The notes beneath the pieces are model-generated. The model was not told where the DNA came from. It saw nothing but the letters and a program-made list of their open reading frames with translations, and did no database searches. Below, piece by piece: positions 36,455 through 47,657 of a stretch of DNA of 64,000 nt. The position numbers and the translations under genes were made by a program. The stretch is from Bacteroidota bacterium (lineage in GTDB: Bacteria > Bacteroidota > Bacteroidia > Chitinophagales > Saprospiraceae), in assembly GCA_020160935.1 (NCBI GenBank), contig JAIUPL010000001.1, positions 310,001-374,000 of the forward strand, read 5' to 3'. Positions within the stretch are counted from its first letter, which is position 1. Each line of letters opens with the position of its first letter.

Positions 36455-39400
36455 TTACACCCGTCCTTCTTTTTCCAACTCATCCAGCCGCATCCGATAA
36501 ATATGCTGCGGTGTGCGGTCGTACAGTGATTTGTACAAAGTCATAGCCCGCAGGTGGTGTGGAACCGGATTGTCGGCCACACGCCGCAGTTCAAAATGCA
36601 CGGCCGCTTCTTCCCGCTCGGTGCGGGCCAGTGCCAGCAGTTGCTGGAGCTGGCGCAAGGCTTCCGGTTTGTTGCCTTCAGCGATAATCACCTGGGAACG
36701 CAAGATATTGGAACTAAAGGTAAGATCGGCATTGCCGAGGGCCAGCGCGATGTCGCGGCCTTCTTCGAGCAATTGGCGGGCAGCGGCAATTTCACCGGAA
36801 TGCAGGTGAACCAGCCCTTTTTCTACCAGGGAATAGCCCAGCACAAGGCGGTTGCCCATTTCGCGGGCATATTCGATGGCTTCGTTGTAGTAGCGAATAC
36901 TTCTGGCGTAATCCCGCTTGAAAAACCAGGTATCGCCCAGTGTGTTCAGCGCTTTGGCGATGCCTTTTTTATAATTGAGTTCGCGGCTGAGCGCCAAATT
37001 CTGATCCAGGTATTCGATAGCGGCATCGAATTGGCCCATGGTAGACAACAGGTCGCCGATGAGTCCACATGCAATGGCCGTCCCCTGCTTGTCGCCCAGT
37101 TCGCGGGCAAGCAGCAGGTCGCGCTCGAAGTTTTGCATGGCTTTGGCATAGTCGCCTTTCTTTTCCCACACGGAACCGATTGAGCCGATGCAAATCGTCA
37201 TAAACAGTTTGTTGCCCAGTTCTTCGGAATAGGCGAGGCCTTTTTCCAGGCAGAGCAGGGCGCTGTCGAGGCTGTTTTTTTCCAGATAAATGATGCCCAG
37301 GTTGGTGTACAGGGTAGTGAGGCCCTGTTTGTCGGCTACGCGCTCTACGATGTCGAGTTGTTCTTCGAGCCAGCGGATACCTTCATCGTAGTGGCCTTGG
37401 TTCATAAAAATGAGACCCAGATTGGCGACGATGGAGGCATTTTCTGTTTCGCGGTTGTTGGCGCGGTTGATTTCGATGGCTTTGGCGAACCAACTTTTGG
37501 CCGCGTCGTAACTGCCCTGCCGGAAGAAGAAGGTGCCGAGGTTGCCGTATGTTTTGGCAATGCCGATCTGGTCATTGGCGAGGTCGAAACAGGTGATGGC
37601 TACGTCGAGGTATTTTTTGGCTTCCGGGTAATTGCCGCGCAGCATCAGCAACTGCCCCAGTCGGCGGTTGCTGCGCCCGATCAGGTACCAGTCGTTCAGG
37701 TTTTTGGCGCGTTCGAGCGCCAGGCGATAGTCGCGTTCGGCCTCATCCCATTGCCCGACCAGTTCATGTACCGTGCCTTTCCGGAGGATGAGTTTGATTA
37801 CTTTTTTGCCTTTTTTATCCTTGTCGAGGGTATTGGCAATCAGTTTTTCATAAAAAGACAGTGCCTGTCTGTTCAGGAAATTTCGCTGGGAGTACCGAGC
37901 GGCTTTCTCCAGATATTTATTCGTTTTACGATCGTCTTCTGCCTGCTCATAGTGGAAAGCAAGGTCGACATATCGTTCTTGCGAGTTGGGGTAGAGATGC
38001 TCGATGGCGTCGGCAATAAGTTGGTGCAGTTCGCGCAGGCGGGTGCGCAATTGCATATCGTATGCGGCTTCGCGCAGGAGCGAGTGCCGGAAAATGTAGC
38101 GCAGTTCGTTCATCGCATACCACACTTGCCATTTCTCGGCGGTCTGGATTTGTTCGCGCAACACCGTTTCCATGTCGCCGTTTTTTCGGATAAATTCTTC
38201 CTGTTTGGCCATGACGGCAGACAGCACCGGAAGTTCAAATTCGCGGCCGATCACCGCTGCTGCCTTCACCGTTTCTTTCACCAGTCCGCTGAGCCGGTCG
38301 ATACGTGCCATCATGATTTCCTTGACGGAATCGTTCATCTGCACGTCCTGGTTTTTCAGTTGCAGCAGGCCGCCGTTATTTTTCAGCAAATTGGCTTCCC
38401 GGAAATATTCAGCCATCTGTTCGATATAGAACGGATTGCCCTGTGTCATGCGTTGCAGCAATTCGAGCAGTTCCGGATGGAGGTTTCCGCCCAGCCGGGC
38501 TTCTGCAAAAGCCTTCAGGTCTTCGGGGTGCAGGAAGTTGAGGTCGACTTCCACATTTTGGATCGACAGTTCTTCCAGTACATTTTTTTTGAACAGGTAC
38601 GATTTGGATCCATCATCTTCGTAGCGGCTGGTGGCCAGAAAAAGCAGCGGATAGGCTTGTGCGCGCCGGATGAATTGTGCCAAAAATTCATGGCTCATTT
38701 CATCGTACCAGTGTGCATCTTCAAGTTCTATAACAACGGGCTGCAACAGTGATTCGGCCACAAACAAATTGGCCATGGCAGCCAGGCCATTCTGATAACG
38801 GCCGCGGCCGTCGAGTTGTTCCCACAAGGAGCCCGGGTAATGTATGCCGAGCATGGCAGCGAGCACGCTTTGGGTACGGCTGATTTCGCGACGAACGGCA
38901 TCTGCTTCAGGGTGCTTGCTTTCGGTGAGTTCGAATTGCAGTTCGATAAAATTCTGCTCAAACAATTCCCTGTTGCGGCCGTGTGTGTTTTCCGGACTTT
39001 GCTCGAAGTAGTTTTTGAGCAAATAGATAAACGGATTGAAGGGTTTGCGCAGGATCTGGTCGCTCTGACAGGTAAACCAACTCACCGTCATGGCATCGCG
39101 CATTTGCCGGCGAAACTCGTAACTAAGCCGGCTTTTGCCAATACCTGCCTCGCCAAAAACATACGCTACGCCCGCAAAATGCCCGTCGCGAAGGGGCGAG
39201 GCAAATTCTACCAGTTGGCGCAGTTCGGCAGCCCGGCCAAAATAATCGCCGGAAAAACTTGCCCGCCCCAACAGGTTTCTACCTGTCAGTACGTAGGTAG
39301 GTATTGGTTTGGTAAATCCCTTGTATTGTCCTTCTCCCCGATATGTAAATTTGAAATTGCGGTTGCGCTGCACGTTTTCATCCACCATCACTTCGCCCCA

Positions 39401-40528
39401 GCCGGCCTTCATCATGAGGCGTGCGCCCAGGTTGACACGGGCGCCTACGGCAGCATACTGGCAGCGTTCGGCGCTTCCGATGACACCCGTAAATGCCAAC
39501 CCGGAAGTTATGCCAATGCGGTATTTGGCGCCTGTCAGGTTTTCCAGCGAGCCCATTTGCTCCTGAATGGCAGCCACAAATTCCAAAGCGCGCTCTACGT
39601 TATTTTCAAATGAAATAGGCGCACCAAAAAGGCAAAAAATTACGCCGCCCTTGTCGCCAAAGTCAATTTCTTTCAGGTAGGCGCCAAAATTGTCGCATTC
39701 CTGCAGTACCACGCTCGCAAAATGATCAAGCGCAGTGTGGTATTCCACTCCTGCAAAGGATATAAATACGCTTACTACGTTGCGAAACTCCCCGATTTCC
39801 TGATTTTCGAATACTTCTTTGGGAAGAAATTGCACCATCAAATGCGGGTCTGGAACAGGAAGCGGTTTGAGGTCAGGAGCAACAATCGGCTTTTGTTCTT
39901 TTTCCGCATTGAGGATGATTTTGTAATATTCATCTGGCAATTCCTTCGTTTCCAGTTGAAGTGGATGCAGAAATGGTTTCAACAAAGCATCGCCCACTAT
40001 TTCCAGGCTGGCCGCTTTGCCCTGTGCCTGGGCGCACCCGTCGATAGGCGCTCCTCTGAAGTAATATGCTTTGCGGTCTTTACCTACGATGCCCCATTCT
40101 ACGGTTCCCTGCGAAAGCCCGATTTTGATACCTATGTGATGCTGGAATAGCAGTGATTCCTCATTGGCCTGCGCTTCGGCAAAACGGGTAAGCGACGACT
40201 GTGCGGTTGAAATGACACGACGCCCGACTTCCAGATTTTCCAGAGAGGCTGCACTATTGGATGTTGTCGGAAATATTGCCGTAAAACTGTCGCCTGCGAA
40301 GTATGGAATGAAACCTCCCTGCTCGTATACCAGGTGCACCATCGGCTGGAAAATATAATTGAGCGCCACCGACAATTCTTCGGCGCCTTCAGAGCCTTTG
40401 CGCATAAGTGTCTCCGTCAGTTGGGTGAACCCACTGAGGTCGACGAACATGGTGAAGGCATTGAGTTGGCCTTCCTGAATGCCGTTTCGGTAATTTTCCT
40501 GGATAAAATGTGGCAGGAAGTGTTTCAA
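36455..40528 (-). CDS. Soluble-adenylyl-cyclase-like protein: two cyclase domains, NTPase and TPR array
   Basis: A 1357-residue cytoplasmic protein. Class III nucleotidyl cyclase domain C1 (about 20-200) keeps both metal aspartates (FVDLSGFT and YFAGDSF). C2 (about 245-420) starts VFISFAGVE, lacking the first aspartate, but has GVIFCLFGAP and AAVGARVNLGARL. An AAA/STAND-type ATPase with Walker A GEAGIGKS is near 460. About a dozen TPR repeats fill about 840-1340. This C1-C2-NTPase-TPR order matches mammalian sAC (ADCY10) and bacterial relatives, so cAMP production at the C1/C2 interface is plausible. What it senses is not visible. Confidence 0.88.
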   Translation of the reverse strand: MKHFLPHFIQENYRNGIQEGQLNAFTMFVDLSGFTQLTETLMRKGSEGAEELSVALNYIFQPMVHLVYEQGGFIPYFAGDSFTAIFPTTSNSAASLENLEVGRRVISTAQSSLTRFAEAQANEESLLFQHHIGIKIGLSQGTVEWGIVGKDRKAYYFRGAPIDGCAQAQGKAASLEIVGDALLKPFLHPLQLETKELPDEYYKIILNAEKEQKPIVAPDLKPLPVPDPHLMVQFLPKEVFENQEIGEFRNVVSVFISFAGVEYHTALDHFASVVLQECDNFGAYLKEIDFGDKGGVIFCLFGAPISFENNVERALEFVAAIQEQMGSLENLTGAKYRIGITSGLAFTGVIGSAERCQYAAVGARVNLGARLMMKAGWGEVMVDENVQRNRNFKFTYRGEGQYKGFTKPIPTYVLTGRNLLGRASFSGDYFGRAAELRQLVEFASPLRDGHFAGVAYVFGEAGIGKSRLSYEFRRQMRDAMTVSWFTCQSDQILRKPFNPFIYLLKNYFEQSPENTHGRNRELFEQNFIELQFELTESKHPEADAVRREISRTQSVLAAMLGIHYPGSLWEQLDGRGRYQNGLAAMANLFVAESLLQPVVIELEDAHWYDEMSHEFLAQFIRRAQAYPLLFLATSRYEDDGSKSYLFKKNVLEELSIQNVEVDLNFLHPEDLKAFAEARLGGNLHPELLELLQRMTQGNPFYIEQMAEYFREANLLKNNGGLLQLKNQDVQMNDSVKEIMMARIDRLSGLVKETVKAAAVIGREFELPVLSAVMAKQEEFIRKNGDMETVLREQIQTAEKWQVWYAMNELRYIFRHSLLREAAYDMQLRTRLRELHQLIADAIEHLYPNSQERYVDLAFHYEQAEDDRKTNKYLEKAARYSQRNFLNRQALSFYEKLIANTLDKDKKGKKVIKLILRKGTVHELVGQWDEAERDYRLALERAKNLNDWYLIGRSNRRLGQLLMLRGNYPEAKKYLDVAITCFDLANDQIGIAKTYGNLGTFFFRQGSYDAAKSWFAKAIEINRANNRETENASIVANLGLIFMNQGHYDEGIRWLEEQLDIVERVADKQGLTTLYTNLGIIYLEKNSLDSALLCLEKGLAYSEELGNKLFMTICIGSIGSVWEKKGDYAKAMQNFERDLLLARELGDKQGTAIACGLIGDLLSTMGQFDAAIEYLDQNLALSRELNYKKGIAKALNTLGDTWFFKRDYARSIRYYNEAIEYAREMGNRLVLGYSLVEKGLVHLHSGEIAAARQLLEEGRDIALALGNADLTFSSNILRSQVIIAEGNKPEALRQLQQLLALARTEREEAAVHFELRRVADNPVPHHLRAMTLYKSLYDRTPQHIYRMRLDELEKEGRV

Positions 40529-43384: not shown

Positions 43385-43726
43385 TCAGGCATTTTGCAAC
43401 TCGTCCCAGTATTCCACTGCCCGACGGGTGTGCGGAATGCAAATGGAACCGCCAACCATATTGGCCACTGCAAATATTTCAAAAATCTGGTCGGTGTTCA
43501 CGCCCAGTTCGTGGCATTTGCCCAGGTGGTATTTGATACAATCATCGCAGCGCAACACCATGGAAGCAACCAGGCCCAGCATTTCCTTGGTTTTTACATC
43601 GAGCGCGCCTTCCTGATAGGTCTGGTTGTCCAGGCTCCAGAAACGTTTGATTACTTTGTTGTCGGTTGCGAGGATGCGCTCGTTCATGCGGGCGCGGTAG
43701 TCGTTGAATTCTTGTACGAGTGACAT
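43385..43726 (-). CDS. Carboxymuconolactone decarboxylase/AhpD-like protein
   Basis: A 113-residue all-helical protein with the AhpD-type redox motif C-x2-C followed by His (RCDDCIKYHLG, about 60-67). It belongs to the CMD superfamily, whose CxxC members act as alkyl-hydroperoxidase-like peroxidases or disulfide reductases. The length matches small cytoplasmic CMD proteins. Four 7-bp GTTATCA units lie just upstream of the ATG at 43726. Confidence 0.9.
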   Translation of the reverse strand: MSLVQEFNDYRARMNERILATDNKVIKRFWSLDNQTYQEGALDVKTKEMLGLVASMVLRCDDCIKYHLGKCHELGVNTDQIFEIFAVANMVGGSICIPHTRRAVEYWDELQNA

Positions 43727-43736
43727 TCTGTTTTTT

Positions 43737-43764
43737 GTTATCAGTTATCAGTTATCGGTTATCA
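43737..43764. repeat. Four 7-bp units (GTTATCA)
   Basis: GTTATCA, GTTATCA, GTTATCG and GTTATCA run from 43737 to 43764, 10 nt upstream of the AhpD-like start, in the divergent gap with dtd. Confidence 0.85.
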
Positions 43765-43829
43765 AATTGGATAATTGTTCAATTTTATGATAACCGGCTG
43801 CAAAAGTCTTACAATTTCCACATTTGATC

Positions 43830-44282
43830 ATGCGTGTCGTATTACAAAGGGTTTCTCAGGCATCCGTTACCATCGATGGAGTGGAAAAATCCCGCATCGG
43901 CTGGGGCTTTCTCATTTTGCTGGGTATAGAACAGGAAGACCAACAGGACGATATAGACTGGCTTTGCAAAAAAATCAGTGCTTTGAGAGTCTTTTCCGAT
44001 GAAGAGGGGCTAATGAACCGTTCGGTGCAGGACATCGGGGGCGAAATGCTCGTAGTAAGCCAGTTCACTTTGCATGCAAGTACCAAAAAAGGCAACCGAC
44101 CGTCTTTTATCAAGGCAGCGCGCCCTGAAACCGCCATTCCCTTATATGAACGTTTTGTCGAAGTGCTTCAGCAGGAGTCGGGGCGACCTGTATCAACAGG
44201 TTCTTTTGGCGCTGATATGAAAGTGTCGTTACTCAACGACGGTCCGGTTACGATCCTCATCGATTCCAAAAACAGGGAATAG
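43830..44282 (+). CDS. dtd: D-aminoacyl-tRNA deacylase
   Basis: 150 residues from the ATG at 43830 (MRVVLQRVSQASV). The active-site blocks SQFTLHAST and NDGPVTILIDS (the Gly-cisPro motif region) are intact. DTD removes D-amino acids, and glycine from tRNA-Ala, to keep translation accurate. A CACATTTG box (one mismatch to TAnnTTTG) ends 3 nt before the ATG, consistent with a leaderless mRNA. It is convergent with the SRAP gene. Confidence 0.95.
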   Translation: MRVVLQRVSQASVTIDGVEKSRIGWGFLILLGIEQEDQQDDIDWLCKKISALRVFSDEEGLMNRSVQDIGGEMLVVSQFTLHASTKKGNRPSFIKAARPETAIPLYERFVEVLQQESGRPVSTGSFGADMKVSLLNDGPVTILIDSKNRE

Positions 44283-44332
44283 GCAGAAACGTTGCATCGG
44301 CCACACCTATATATATTAGGATACAGCCGGTG

Positions 44333-45013
44333 TTAAAATAATCGCAAAGCATCTGCTACTTCCTCGTGCAACGTCGGATCGTCTACACCCGTGCTGTTCA
44401 ACCGCTCTGATACGCGATACATATCGAGCAAGCCATCAGCAGGAGGCGCCAGCATTTCCACAAGAGATTCCTCCGACAATTTTCCAAGCCATTTTTGTTG
44501 CGCCGCTTCGGTTGGCAATATGAGCGGCATCCGGTTGTGCAGTGGAGCCATTTCGGCATTGGGCCCGGTGGTAAGAATGGAAAATGTGTTTTGCACCTCG
44601 GTGCCGCTTCCCCAACGTTCCCATATTCCTGCCATCATGAGCAAGTCGCCGTTTTTCAGAAAAATGCGATAGGGTAGTTTTCGCCCGTCCGGCTCTTTAC
44701 GCCATTCATAAAAACTGTCGGCCGGCACGAGACAACGCCGGCTGAACACGGCATCCCGGAAAGACGGTTTTTCAAAAATGGTTTCGGAACGGGCATTGAT
44801 CAGTTTTCCATTGTTGACGCCATCCCGGCTCCAGGAAGGAACGAGCCCCCAGTTCATTTCTTTGATCTCGGCAGGGCTATCACTGGCAATGACATAGGCT
44901 GACTGCGTGGGCGCCAGGTTGAAACGAATTTTCCACACAGGGGGCTGTTTCAAAGCATCCAGTTGTTGGGCTTTTTGCTTTTTGGTAGGAGCTAAGGAGT
45001 AACGACCGCACAT
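44333..45013 (-). CDS. SRAP-domain protein (YedK/HMCES)
   Basis: 226 residues from the ATG at 45013. The mature N-terminus is Cys2 (MCGRYS), the residue that forms a thiazolidine crosslink with abasic sites in single-stranded DNA. The other active-site elements are LINARSET, SFYEW and APLHNRMPLIL with the catalytic His. SRAP proteins shield abasic sites at stalled forks. An open extension to 45109 would bury the cysteine, so I reject it. One exact DnaA box (44929-44937) lies within the gene, which borders the origin candidate. Confidence 0.93.
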   Translation of the reverse strand: MCGRYSLAPTKKQKAQQLDALKQPPVWKIRFNLAPTQSAYVIASDSPAEIKEMNWGLVPSWSRDGVNNGKLINARSETIFEKPSFRDAVFSRRCLVPADSFYEWRKEPDGRKLPYRIFLKNGDLLMMAGIWERWGSGTEVQNTFSILTTGPNAEMAPLHNRMPLILPTEAAQQKWLGKLSEESLVEMLAPPADGLLDMYRVSERLNSTGVDDPTLHEEVADALRLF

Positions 45014-45673
45014 ATGGATGGAAAACGTGGATTTTGTTTTAAAAAACACAGTATAAATGAAAATGTTCTCCCATCTAAAGCAAAGTTTTATTCTGTTTTC
45101 AGGAGGCAAAAATTTACAATTTCTTCATTTTGAACACTTTCAGCAAGTCAACTTCTTGTTTGAAATAGTTACAAACATAATAAATGATAATATTTATAAC
45201 AAACTGAAAAAGAACATCATAAACCTAATACAACAATGTGGAAAAGCCAGCATTTCATCAACTGTCATCCACATAACCCCGAAGAAAATATACACATGAG
45301 CGGTTTTCAATAGCCAGCGTGTTTGTAACCTCCATGTTGCAAACGATAGTTAACAACACCCGGGATGGAGAAAAGACAAACGTTGTCTTTTTCAACATTT
45401 TCAAGGAATACTGTGAACAACTTTACAAAATGCTGATTACAAAGACCCGTTTTTCCACATTCTTTGTAGAAAAAGGTGGTAACTACTGGTAGTCTGGCAG
45501 AATACATGTGCAGTTATGAGGTTTTCCACAAACTAACACCCCTGATGATGGCCGTAGGCTTTTTAATTTAAAATCATCTAAAATTAATAAAGGGGTATCA
45601 CCCTTGAGAAAGTAGCCGCATCAAACGCTCTATTTTTGTGTCAAAATTCATCGAATCAAAAAATCCATTTCAG
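45014..45673. other. oriC: Candidate chromosomal replication origin (oriC)
   Basis: This 660-bp stretch has no credible gene. Three exact DnaA boxes TTTTCCACA lie at 45237-45245 (minus), 45451-45459 and 45522-45530 (plus). One-mismatch boxes are at 45265-45273 (TCATCCACA), 45288-45296 (ATATACACA) and 45412-45420 (minus, TTGTTCACA). A further exact box is inside the SRAP gene at 44929. The adjoining 45110-45235 stretch is strongly AT-rich and could unwind first. Three parS sites lie within 10.5 kb. dnaA is not adjacent, which is not unusual in Bacteroidota. The call is inference from motif clustering. Confidence 0.72.
45631..45638 (+). promoter_or_regulatory. -7 box TATTTTTG for ctaA
   Basis: Exact TAnnTTTG match, 35 nt before the ATG at 45674. 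A GTG codon that could extend the protein overlaps this box, which argues against the longer start. Confidence 0.6.
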
Positions 45674-46768
45674 ATGTTTCGATTTTCGGAAGATACCGCC
45701 ATACCTCGAGCGGTAAAAATATGGCTCGTCACGGGGCTGGTCATGATTTTAATTCAAATTGCCCTGGGCGGCATTACCCGACTCACTGGAAGCGGGCTGA
45801 GTATCACCCGTTGGGACATTGTAACGGGCACCTTGCCACCTCTTTCGGAAGCCGCCTGGCAGTCGGCATATGAACTGTATCAACAGACGCCGCAGTATCA
45901 CAAGATCAATCAGGGCATGAGCCTCGATGCGTTCAAGTTTATTTATTTCTGGGAGTACTTTCATCGGCTGTGGGCGCGCCTCATGTTTCTGGTCTTTATC
46001 GTTCCATTTGGCTGGTTTTTATCGAAAGGAATGTTTTCCAGGCGCCTGCTCCCCAGGTTGCTGATCGTAGTAGCCCTTGCCGGTCTGGAAGGTTTTTTTG
46101 GATGGATCATGGTGGCCAGTGGACTGATTAAACGCCCGTGGGTAAATGCCTACAACCTCACCCTGCACCTGTGTATGGCGATCGTCATTTTCTCTTATTT
46201 GCTGTGGACTACATTCATTGCCTTTAAACCCGATGGCATTCGGAAGCAGGCCGAGGTAATGAAAAAGAGCGGGCTTGTTTTTTTATGGACCCTGGTCGGA
46301 TTGGCATTTTTACAGATTGCATTGGGCGCCATGATGTCGGGTACCAAAGCGGGCCTTTCGTATCCTACCTGGCCCGATATGCACGGCACTTATCTGCCGG
46401 CTTTGTTGCTGGATCCGGCGAACTGGACCGCTGAAAATTTTCAGCACTACGACAGCGACATTTTTATGCCGACGCTCATTCAGTTTCTTCATCGCAATAC
46501 GGCTTACCTGCTTTCAGCCCTGATGATTTATTTCATTTGGCGGACTGCTCCCGACACGCGGAAGGTGCCTGTACTGCGTTCGGGTACAATTGCGTTGTTG
46601 AGTATGCTTGGCATTCAGGTTTTGCTCGGTATATTTACACTGATCAACTGCAACGGCGGCATACCGGTTGTGCTGGGAGTGCTGCATCAGGCGGGCGCCA
46701 TCTTGCTATTGGCTGTTCTGTTGTATGTGACCTATCAGTACAAATTGACATTTGAAACAAAAAACTGA
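45674..46768 (+). CDS. ctaA: Haem A synthase, COX15/CtaA family
   Basis: 364 residues from the ATG at 45674 (MFRFSEDTAIP). About eight membrane helices carry the conserved haem ligands: EYFHRLWAR, NLTLHLCM, FLHRNTAY and LHQAGA. The first-loop signature GGITRLTGSGLSITRW is that of the COX15-type (alpha-proteobacterial/mitochondrial) enzymes. It oxidises haem O to haem A for cytochrome c oxidase in the inner membrane. It is the first gene right of the origin candidate. Confidence 0.94.
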   Translation: MFRFSEDTAIPRAVKIWLVTGLVMILIQIALGGITRLTGSGLSITRWDIVTGTLPPLSEAAWQSAYELYQQTPQYHKINQGMSLDAFKFIYFWEYFHRLWARLMFLVFIVPFGWFLSKGMFSRRLLPRLLIVVALAGLEGFFGWIMVASGLIKRPWVNAYNLTLHLCMAIVIFSYLLWTTFIAFKPDGIRKQAEVMKKSGLVFLWTLVGLAFLQIALGAMMSGTKAGLSYPTWPDMHGTYLPALLLDPANWTAENFQHYDSDIFMPTLIQFLHRNTAYLLSALMIYFIWRTAPDTRKVPVLRSGTIALLSMLGIQVLLGIFTLINCNGGIPVVLGVLHQAGAILLLAVLLYVTYQYKLTFETKN

Positions 46769-46844
46769 TTGGAGTACGATTTCCTGCAGACTCTATGCTG
46801 ATGAGCCTCATTTTCTACAAATGATTTAGTTTGGCGGTTTTTGC

Positions 46845-46852
46845 TATTTTTG
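46845..46852 (+). promoter_or_regulatory. -7 box TATTTTTG for the hydrolase gene
   Basis: Exact TAnnTTTG match 25 nt before the ATG at 46878. Confidence 0.55.
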
Positions 46853-46877
46853 CACATCTTATATCGAACCACAACGA

Positions 46878-47657
46878 ATGACTTTATCAACTAAAGAAGA
46901 AAACGGTTTCCGTTATATCGAATCCGGAACACAGGGTGAAACACTGCTTCTCCTGCATGGATTGTTTGGAGCATTGAGTAATTTTCAGGGAATCATCGAC
47001 CATTTTTCAGATCGCTACAACGTGGTAGTTCCACTGTTGCCTATTTACGAGATGCCTATCTTTCAGGTATCAGTAATGGGATTGGTCGATTTCACAACCA
47101 AATTCGTGGAGTACAAAGAATACGACAAGGTGCATCTCCTGGGCAATTCACTTGGAGGGCACGTGGCTTTGTTGTATGCGCTGGCGCATCCCGAGCGCAT
47201 TGCTTCCATTACACTGACCGGTAGTTCCGGTTTGTTTGAAAGTGCTTTCGGGACAGCCTTCCCGAAACGAGGCGATTACGAATATATCAAAAACAAAACA
47301 GCCGAAACGTTTTACGACCCGGCCGTTGCCAGCAAGGAACTGGTGGATGAAGTATTTGATATTGTCAACGACCGCAACAAGGCTATCCGCGTTGTTGCCA
47401 CAGCCAAGTCGGCTGTTCGCCACAACCTCGGCGACAAATTACATAACATCAAAGCACCTACCTTGCTCATATGGGGCAAGCAGGATGCGGTAACACCGCC
47501 GTTTGTGGGAGAGAAATTCCACGAACTGATTTCCGATTCGCGCCTGTATTTCCTTGACGCATGCGGTCATGCGCCGATGATGGAAAAACCCGAAGATTTT
47601 AATGCTATCCTGGATGGATTTTTAAAAGAAGTATCGGAAAAGAACACAGTTGCTTGA
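46878..47657 (+). CDS. Alpha/beta hydrolase
   Basis: A 259-residue alpha/beta-hydrolase with oxyanion motif LLHGLFG, nucleophile elbow GNSLGG (Ser about 92), acid in IWGKQDAVTPP and histidine in CGHAPMMEKP. The lid region is short (about 125-190). It resembles MhpC/BphD-like C-C or ester hydrolases, but such proteins in Bacteroidota rarely have known substrates. A strong hairpin terminator follows. Confidence 0.88.
   Translation: MTLSTKEENGFRYIESGTQGETLLLLHGLFGALSNFQGIIDHFSDRYNVVVPLLPIYEMPIFQVSVMGLVDFTTKFVEYKEYDKVHLLGNSLGGHVALLYALAHPERIASITLTGSSGLFESAFGTAFPKRGDYEYIKNKTAETFYDPAVASKELVDEVFDIVNDRNKAIRVVATAKSAVRHNLGDKLHNIKAPTLLIWGKQDAVTPPFVGEKFHELISDSRLYFLDACGHAPMMEKPEDFNAILDGFLKEVSEKNTVA

Follow-up and report, generated by a model that had tools for sequence, protein, structure and literature searches.

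A gene-free gap beside ctaA, very probably the chromosomal replication origin of a Saprospiraceae bacterium

The DNA analysed here (the window) is a stretch of 64,000 nt that corresponds to positions 310001-374000 of contig C43 in a genome assembly of 5,836,501 bp and 51 contigs. It holds a gap with an A+T content of 66%, flanked on one side by an SRAP-family gene and on the other by ctaA, the gene for heme A synthase. The initial annotation had described a gene-free AT-rich gap of 420 bp; the gap is indeed gene-free, but it is wider, extending over 45014-45673, from the SRAP start at 45013 to the ctaA ATG at 45674. (We take this ATG as the ctaA start; the longest open reading frame opens earlier, at GTG 45638.) The single open reading frame of at least 80 aa that lies wholly inside the gap (45057-45299) has no Pfam match, a search of Rfam at gathering scores over 43500-47500 gave zero matches, scans for sigma-70 promoters and terminators gave counts close to those in shuffled sequences, and a repeat search likewise yielded nothing decisive. 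Elsewhere in the window, a minus-strand reading frame of 1357 aa (36455-40528) resembles, by eye, an adenylate-cyclase-like ATPase with tetratricopeptide repeats. The features of the locus are as follows.

44333-45013, minus strand: SRAP-family gene, left neighbour (PF02586, E 3.3e-63)
44929-44937, plus strand: exact DnaA box TTTTCCACA inside the SRAP gene, at the same place in relatives L033 and L034 and absent in L036
45014-45673, no strand: gene-free gap, taken as oriC
45106-45244, no strand: AT-rich tract, candidate unwinding element 1, parts of it conserved in a 12-locus alignment
45237-45245, minus strand: exact DnaA box TTTTCCACA; 11 of the 12 aligned loci read TGTGGAWAA here
45265-45273, plus strand: one-mismatch DnaA box TCATCCACA
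45389-45397, plus strand: one-mismatch DnaA box TTTTCAACA
45451-45459, plus strand: exact DnaA box TTTTCCACA, present in L033 too
45465-45473, minus strand: one-mismatch DnaA box TTTTCTACA; two of the 12 aligned loci, L035 and L036, have exact TGTGGATAA here
45522-45530, plus strand: exact DnaA box TTTTCCACA, start of the core element
45522-45550, plus strand: core element TTWTCCACAAAYTAACANNNCTRATGATG, an exact DnaA box followed by a conserved tail
45560-45609, no strand: second soft spot, candidate unwinding element 2, 76% A+T, directly after the core element
45631-45638, plus strand: TATTTTTG, probable ctaA promoter, fitting TAnnTTTG about 35 bp before the ctaA ATG
45674-46768, plus strand: ctaA, right neighbour and conserved landmark (PF02628, E 3.1e-89)

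The three exact and three one-mismatch DnaA boxes that the initial annotation reported for the gap are all present in the sequence, as is the further exact box that it reported within the SRAP gene. The assembly contains 208 copies of TTTTCCACA and 50 of TTATCCACA, of which we placed 196 and all 50, respectively; the placed TTTTCCACA sites comprise all 87 before Y, the first 100 of the 121 before R, and nine more of the R type on the fully read contig C43. In 5000 uniform placements of 208 sites, a group as tight as the four exact boxes of the locus (the SRAP box counted) in 602 bp occurred 0 times, and three boxes within 294 bp were reached by 1.2% of placements. By eye, these four boxes form the densest exact-box group among the placed sites, and the denser cluster elsewhere that the initial annotation had named as grounds for abandoning its reading was not seen among the 196 of 208 placed TTTTCCACA sites. 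Over the whole window, the looser word TTWTNCACA shows no clear excess (11 found vs. 7.06 expected, with 13 of 100 shuffles reaching 11). We conclude that the boxes of the gap are clustered beyond chance, although the window-wide count of TTWTNCACA is ordinary. Among the placed sites the runner-up is a group of three exact boxes in 577 bp on another contig (C31:139975-140551), which could be a DnaA control site. Pairs of TTTTCCACA 0-30 bp apart are absent from the window's own genome.

The boxes adjoin DNA that should melt easily. The AT-rich tract that the initial annotation placed at 45110-45235 is borne out: A+T content is 76% over 45106-45235 and 77% over 45145-45244, compared with 50% for the window, and the least stable DNA of the 64-kb window lies here, both for 50-bp stretches (starting at 45164) and for 100-bp stretches (starting at 45145). 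The second soft spot, 45560-45609, ranks fifth among the least stable 50-bp stretches and contains TTTAAA and TAAAA blocks that are conserved in the 12-locus alignment. An easily melted AT-rich stretch next to the boxes is a criterion for oriC, and such a stretch is thus found at 45164/45145 and again at 45560.

Between these two soft spots, directly before the second, lies the core element. A 42-bp stretch containing it (45512-45553) is kept at 26 or more of its 42 positions in 72 of 107 regions upstream of ctaA (a set in which some species recur, from two sources), whereas none of the 107 reverse complements and none of the 107 shuffles reaches this level. Allowing up to three mismatches, we found TTWTCCACAAAYTAACANNNCTRATGATG in 30 genomes among the 296 from the order, never more than one copy per genome and with 0 control matches; by eye, 28 of the 126 genomes of the window's family and 2 of the 170 outside it carry a match, and within the window's genus 8 of 11 do so. 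In the family, 27 of the 28 matches lie within about 400 bp upstream of ctaA (the genome with the remaining match, G209, has no listed ctaA place), whereas in the two genomes outside the family the distance between match and ctaA is 35 kb (G135) and 384 kb (G038). Since TTWTCCACAAAYTAACANNNCTRATGATG was derived from sequences of the window's genus and most family members lack a match to it, we regard it as a genus-weighted element. A small open reading frame at 45512-45553, codon-like in close relatives, was considered and rejected. The entropies by codon position among 43 distinct sequences are 0.80, 0.65, and 0.83. Stop codons frequently interrupt the frames, which have no start in common; we therefore treat the stretch as a DNA element.

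Boxes of the same kind stand at ctaA throughout the window's family. We searched for ctaA in 60 relatives, the window's own genome included, found it in 55, and took loci from 30 of the best matches, all of the same genus. Of these 30 loci, the window's own counted, 28 have TTWTCCACA in the 1.5 kb before ctaA, and two (L052 and L053) have none upstream; two loci in the set, L045 and L057, provide only 982 and 471 bp of upstream sequence. SRAP was found inside the available upstream flank (1.5 kb) in 15 of the 30 loci, and the boxes therefore go with ctaA and not with SRAP. In a wider set, consisting of the best 80 of 404 relatives and sharing many species with the 30-locus set, 47 loci bear titles of Saprospiraceae or Saprospirales (by eye) and the rest bear titles of Phaeodactylibacter, Lewinella, Flavilitoribacter, Chitinophagales, Bacteroidota, and others. 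Of the 76 loci in this set with 700 bp of upstream sequence available, 70 carry an exact TTWTCCACA within that distance and six do not (L100, L101, L113, L139, L148, and L158). Across the 80 loci, the kilobase upstream of ctaA contains TTWTCCACA at 1.5-2.5 per kb and the region from 500 to 1500 bp past the ctaA start at 1.5-1.6 per kb, compared with 0-0.23 per kb in the remaining 18 of 22 bins, and the reversed word stays at or below 0.061 per kb throughout. One locus of the wider set (L115, JAKLJF010000164.1, titled Thermoanaerobaculia bacterium) has a ctaA of 70% identity and an upstream core of 36/42, like the window's close relatives, although the title of its bin points to a different phylum; it is probably a misbinned contig.

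The association ends at the limits of the family. Two earlier lists supplied 28 genomes, most of them chosen because they have few contigs. All seven that belong to the window's family have boxes upstream of ctaA (G257 has one box there and four more in or after ctaA), whereas the cluster at ctaA is absent from all 21 genomes of the order's other families, 18 of which have no box and three a single stray box within 1.5 kb. Conservation of position among relatives, a further criterion for oriC, is thus observed for the boxes at ctaA.

In many loci of the wider set, the boxes continue into and past the gene. Exact boxes recur at the same places in ctaA (for example, 743 on the minus strand), and pairs of exact boxes 12 bp apart lie directly past the ctaA stop. 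In 47 ctaA genes of the wider set there are 57 boxes, compared with a mean of 5.7 and a maximum of 14 in 300 shuffles of synonymous codons within each gene, and in 32 closer ctaA genes there are 8 boxes, compared with a shuffled mean of 2.3 and a maximum of 6; the genes are related, and the box counts are not independent events. The ctaA of L115, which lacks its stop, was dropped from this analysis, and the reversed word is absent from both gene sets (47 and 32). In the species of the window itself, ctaA and the sequence after it lack exact boxes; there is just TTTTGCACA at 46848. In a relative with a long main contig, G222, 20 kb around ctaA hold 21 TTWTCCACA, with an upstream group at 2052119-2052832; downstream of ctaA, at a distance of about 5.4 kb, there is a second tight group of ten TTWTNCACA, nine of them TTWTCCACA (C1:2044974-2045370).

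In three relatives with long contigs the best raw turn of GC skew lies at the same place, significantly so in one. The clearest case is G144, whose genome is a single contig (7,507,556 bp; ctaA at 2,347,720-2,348,736) and which we sampled in 40 stretches of 20 kb (11%). All stretches between 2.38 and 6.0 Mb have positive skew; outside this range skew is mostly negative, the exceptions being 2.15 Mb (slightly positive) and 6.4 Mb (positive). The best two-point split places the raw rise, i.e. the skew minimum, between 2,338,001 and 2,380,001, with the fall on the opposite side at 6.0-6.2 Mb, a result matched by 0 of 1000 shuffles; after correction for gene direction the rise lies one stretch further on, at 2.38-2.45 Mb. 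The main contig of G150 measures 8,371,686 bp, and its best raw rise likewise falls at the ctaA stretch (3,795,001-3,900,001) with a fall roughly opposite; this turn, taken alone, is not significant (659 of 5000 shuffles), and correction for gene direction shifts the best rise to 2.25-2.70 Mb (849 of 5000). In G222 (main contig 4,345,237 bp) the best raw rise again falls at the ctaA stretch (2,041,001-2,120,001) with a fall roughly opposite, is not significant alone (868 of 5000 shuffles), and stays in place after correction (1280 of 5000). The ctaA stretch is also the one with the most TTWTCCACA in any kilobase (4, 3, and 11 in G144, G150, and G222, respectively), compared with at most one in the other sampled stretches (39, 19, and 19; sampled shares 11%, 5%, and 9%). 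The initial annotation had held that a skew minimum far from the window would speak against an origin; the best raw turn in the three long-contig relatives falls at ctaA.

Closer to the window, skew is weak. Skew inside the 64-kb window is uninformative, and the window's own 439-kb contig, part of an assembly in 51 contigs, shows no clear turn. Of two genomes of the same genus, one (G007) has no skew rise around ctaA and the other (G009) has mixed skew, clearly positive only in two stretches from 1.1 Mb on. It is here, in the genus to which the window belongs, that the argument for an origin has its main gap.

The boxes, as the initial annotation had observed, are not adjacent to dnaA. In the window's genome dnaA lies on a different contig, C19, with no TTWTNCACA around it in 3,486 bp, and in the three long-contig relatives it lies megabases from ctaA (2.35 of 7.51 Mb in G144, 3.80 of 8.37 Mb in G150, and 2.05 of 4.35 Mb in G222). 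The dnaA domain match begins 427-617 bp into the record in six of nine relatives searched (G144, G150, G222, G283, G292, and G322), and the first 20 kb, where dnaA sits, contain 0, 1, and 0 TTWTCCACA in G144, G150, and G222. The arrangement of a dnaA-adjacent oriC, with dnaA beside the box cluster, is thus not found here.

Three other explanations of the boxes have to be weighed. The gap could serve to tune DnaA activity, as DnaA-binding control sites such as datA and DARS do, while the true origin lies elsewhere. Sites of this kind likewise hold several DnaA boxes, and the lack of a GC-skew minimum at this place in the window's contig and genus would agree with such a role. However, the homologous place in G144 is a skew minimum with the maximum opposite, no other sampled stretch of G144, G150, or G222 (11%, 5%, and 9% sampled) has more than one box per kilobase, and the AT-rich soft spots suit unwinding; we give this explanation a slim chance. 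It is most improbable that the boxes serve in regulation, of the ctaA promoter or of the SRAP gene, with no part in initiation. DnaA also acts as a transcription factor, and a conserved promoter-like element does stand before ctaA: TAnnTTTG, which we take to be the Bacteroidota -7 promoter element and on that basis match to TATTTTTG, occurs in 27 of 30 close-relative loci in the 170 bp that immediately precede ctaA (shuffled mean 2.9, largest 8), and its occurrence at 45631-45638 is probably a ctaA promoter beside the origin. Yet the boxes span 600 bp and in relatives reach into and past ctaA, they are present upstream in nearly twice as many loci as SRAP (28 vs. 15 of 30), other families retain ctaA without a box cluster, and skew has its minimum there in G144.

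That the boxes are a chance cluster of short AT-rich words in an AT-rich gap has next to no probability. The window-wide count of TTWTNCACA, only slightly in excess of expectation, speaks in its favour, but uniform placement never reproduced the group, the reversed word is flat across bins, and both box positions and the tail of the core element are conserved in relatives and found in 0 shuffles; because of this conservation, chance clustering can already be regarded as refuted.

We conclude that the gap 45014-45673 is, with high confidence, the chromosomal replication origin (oriC) of this Saprospiraceae bacterium. The proposal of origin function made in the initial annotation gains support from the relatives, in which place and boxes are conserved, skew has its minimum at the homologous locus of G144, and no cluster lies beside dnaA. 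In the mechanism that we propose, DnaA, encoded on another contig, would bind the box array; the core element 45522-45550 would guide DnaA to open one AT-rich stretch, either 45560-45609 or the larger tract 45106-45244; and, after opening, helicase would be loaded and two forks would depart in opposite directions. More tentatively, and at somewhat less than even probability, the Saprospiraceae origin may be built around and into ctaA, with boxes upstream of the gene, boxes at fixed codon places inside it, and 12-bp-apart pairs after its stop, and with the family-specific core (a box plus AAyTAACAnnnCTrATGATG) as the opening site. In the bipartite origins of Bacillus and Helicobacter, the gene between the box clusters is dnaA; in the Saprospiraceae arrangement a respiratory gene would take its place.

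If the preferred reading is true, ctaA, the boxes, and the core element together provide a landmark by which to place oriC in draft genomes and metagenome bins of Saprospiraceae, for which dnaA is a misleading guide, and base 1 is not the origin in six of the nine relatives searched for dnaA, because dnaA sits in their first kilobase. Placement of the origin matters for growth-rate estimates from read depth and for studies of strand bias, and the boxes kept in the ctaA coding sequence make an origin running into a gene a testable proposition. Among the open PMC matches listed, titles and the starts of abstracts mention no oriC beside ctaA or in Saprospiraceae (DoriC may already list such loci), and the ctaA landmark, the family-wide array, and boxes in ctaA do not appear among the literature matches listed.

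The locus is very probably an origin of the ordinary DnaA type; what is unusual is where it lies, next to a gene of heme synthesis and not next to dnaA. The kind of origin is already known, because oriC in Bacteroidetes is commonly far from dnaA, as stated with reference to DoriC (PMC4755523), and the oriC of Flavobacteriaceae strain KMM 8389, predicted by Ori-Finder 2022 with GC skew, lies at mnmG (PMC12843772). The oriC of Prevotella intermedia OMA14 resembles the present locus in being a DnaA-box cluster at the GC-skew turn, away from dnaA, and differs in that the available text names no flanking gene, whereas the landmark here is ctaA (PMC4755523). The KMM 8389 origin belongs to the same phylum and differs in its neighbour, mnmG there and ctaA here (PMC12843772); by eye, mnmG is not recognised among the window's open reading frames (those of at least 80 aa at 38-53 kb and those of at least 150 aa from 52.4 kb on). 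The bipartite origins of Bacillus, Helicobacter, and Clostridioides, as described in two reports (PMC7561715, PMC8235120), share with the present case box clusters that flank a gene, which is ctaA in many relatives; in Clostridioides difficile, in contrast, the flanked gene is dnaA (PMC7561715), and in the species of the window no exact box is found within ctaA or beyond it.

At the level of the opening site, the comparison is with the basal unwinding system and its DnaA-trios. After the box at 45522, an 11-bp spacer is followed on the plus strand by CTG ATG ATG (CTA ATG ATG in many relatives). By eye, this fits the permissive rule of at least three NAN triplets located 0-16 bp from a DnaA box (PMC8287927), irrespective of how the box is oriented relative to the triplets in the Bacillus subtilis original; since about 0.27 such runs per box are expected by chance (17 spacer lengths, our own arithmetic), the match is weak. 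It does not fit the stringent rule of more than three triplets 3'-[G/A]A[T/A]-5' (PMC7561715), as the ATG triplets read 3'-TAC-5' and the first triplet reads 3'-GAC-5'. In Helicobacter pylori, changing the outer trio bases while keeping the middle T stopped opening (PMC8235120), and we therefore do not claim DnaA-trios here. The locus thus resembles the basal unwinding system in its box at 45522, its 11-bp spacer, its three middle-A triplets on the other strand, and its AT-rich stretch, and differs from it in that the first triplet alone resembles 3'-GAT-5' and both ATG triplets fit the permissive pattern only (PMC8287927).
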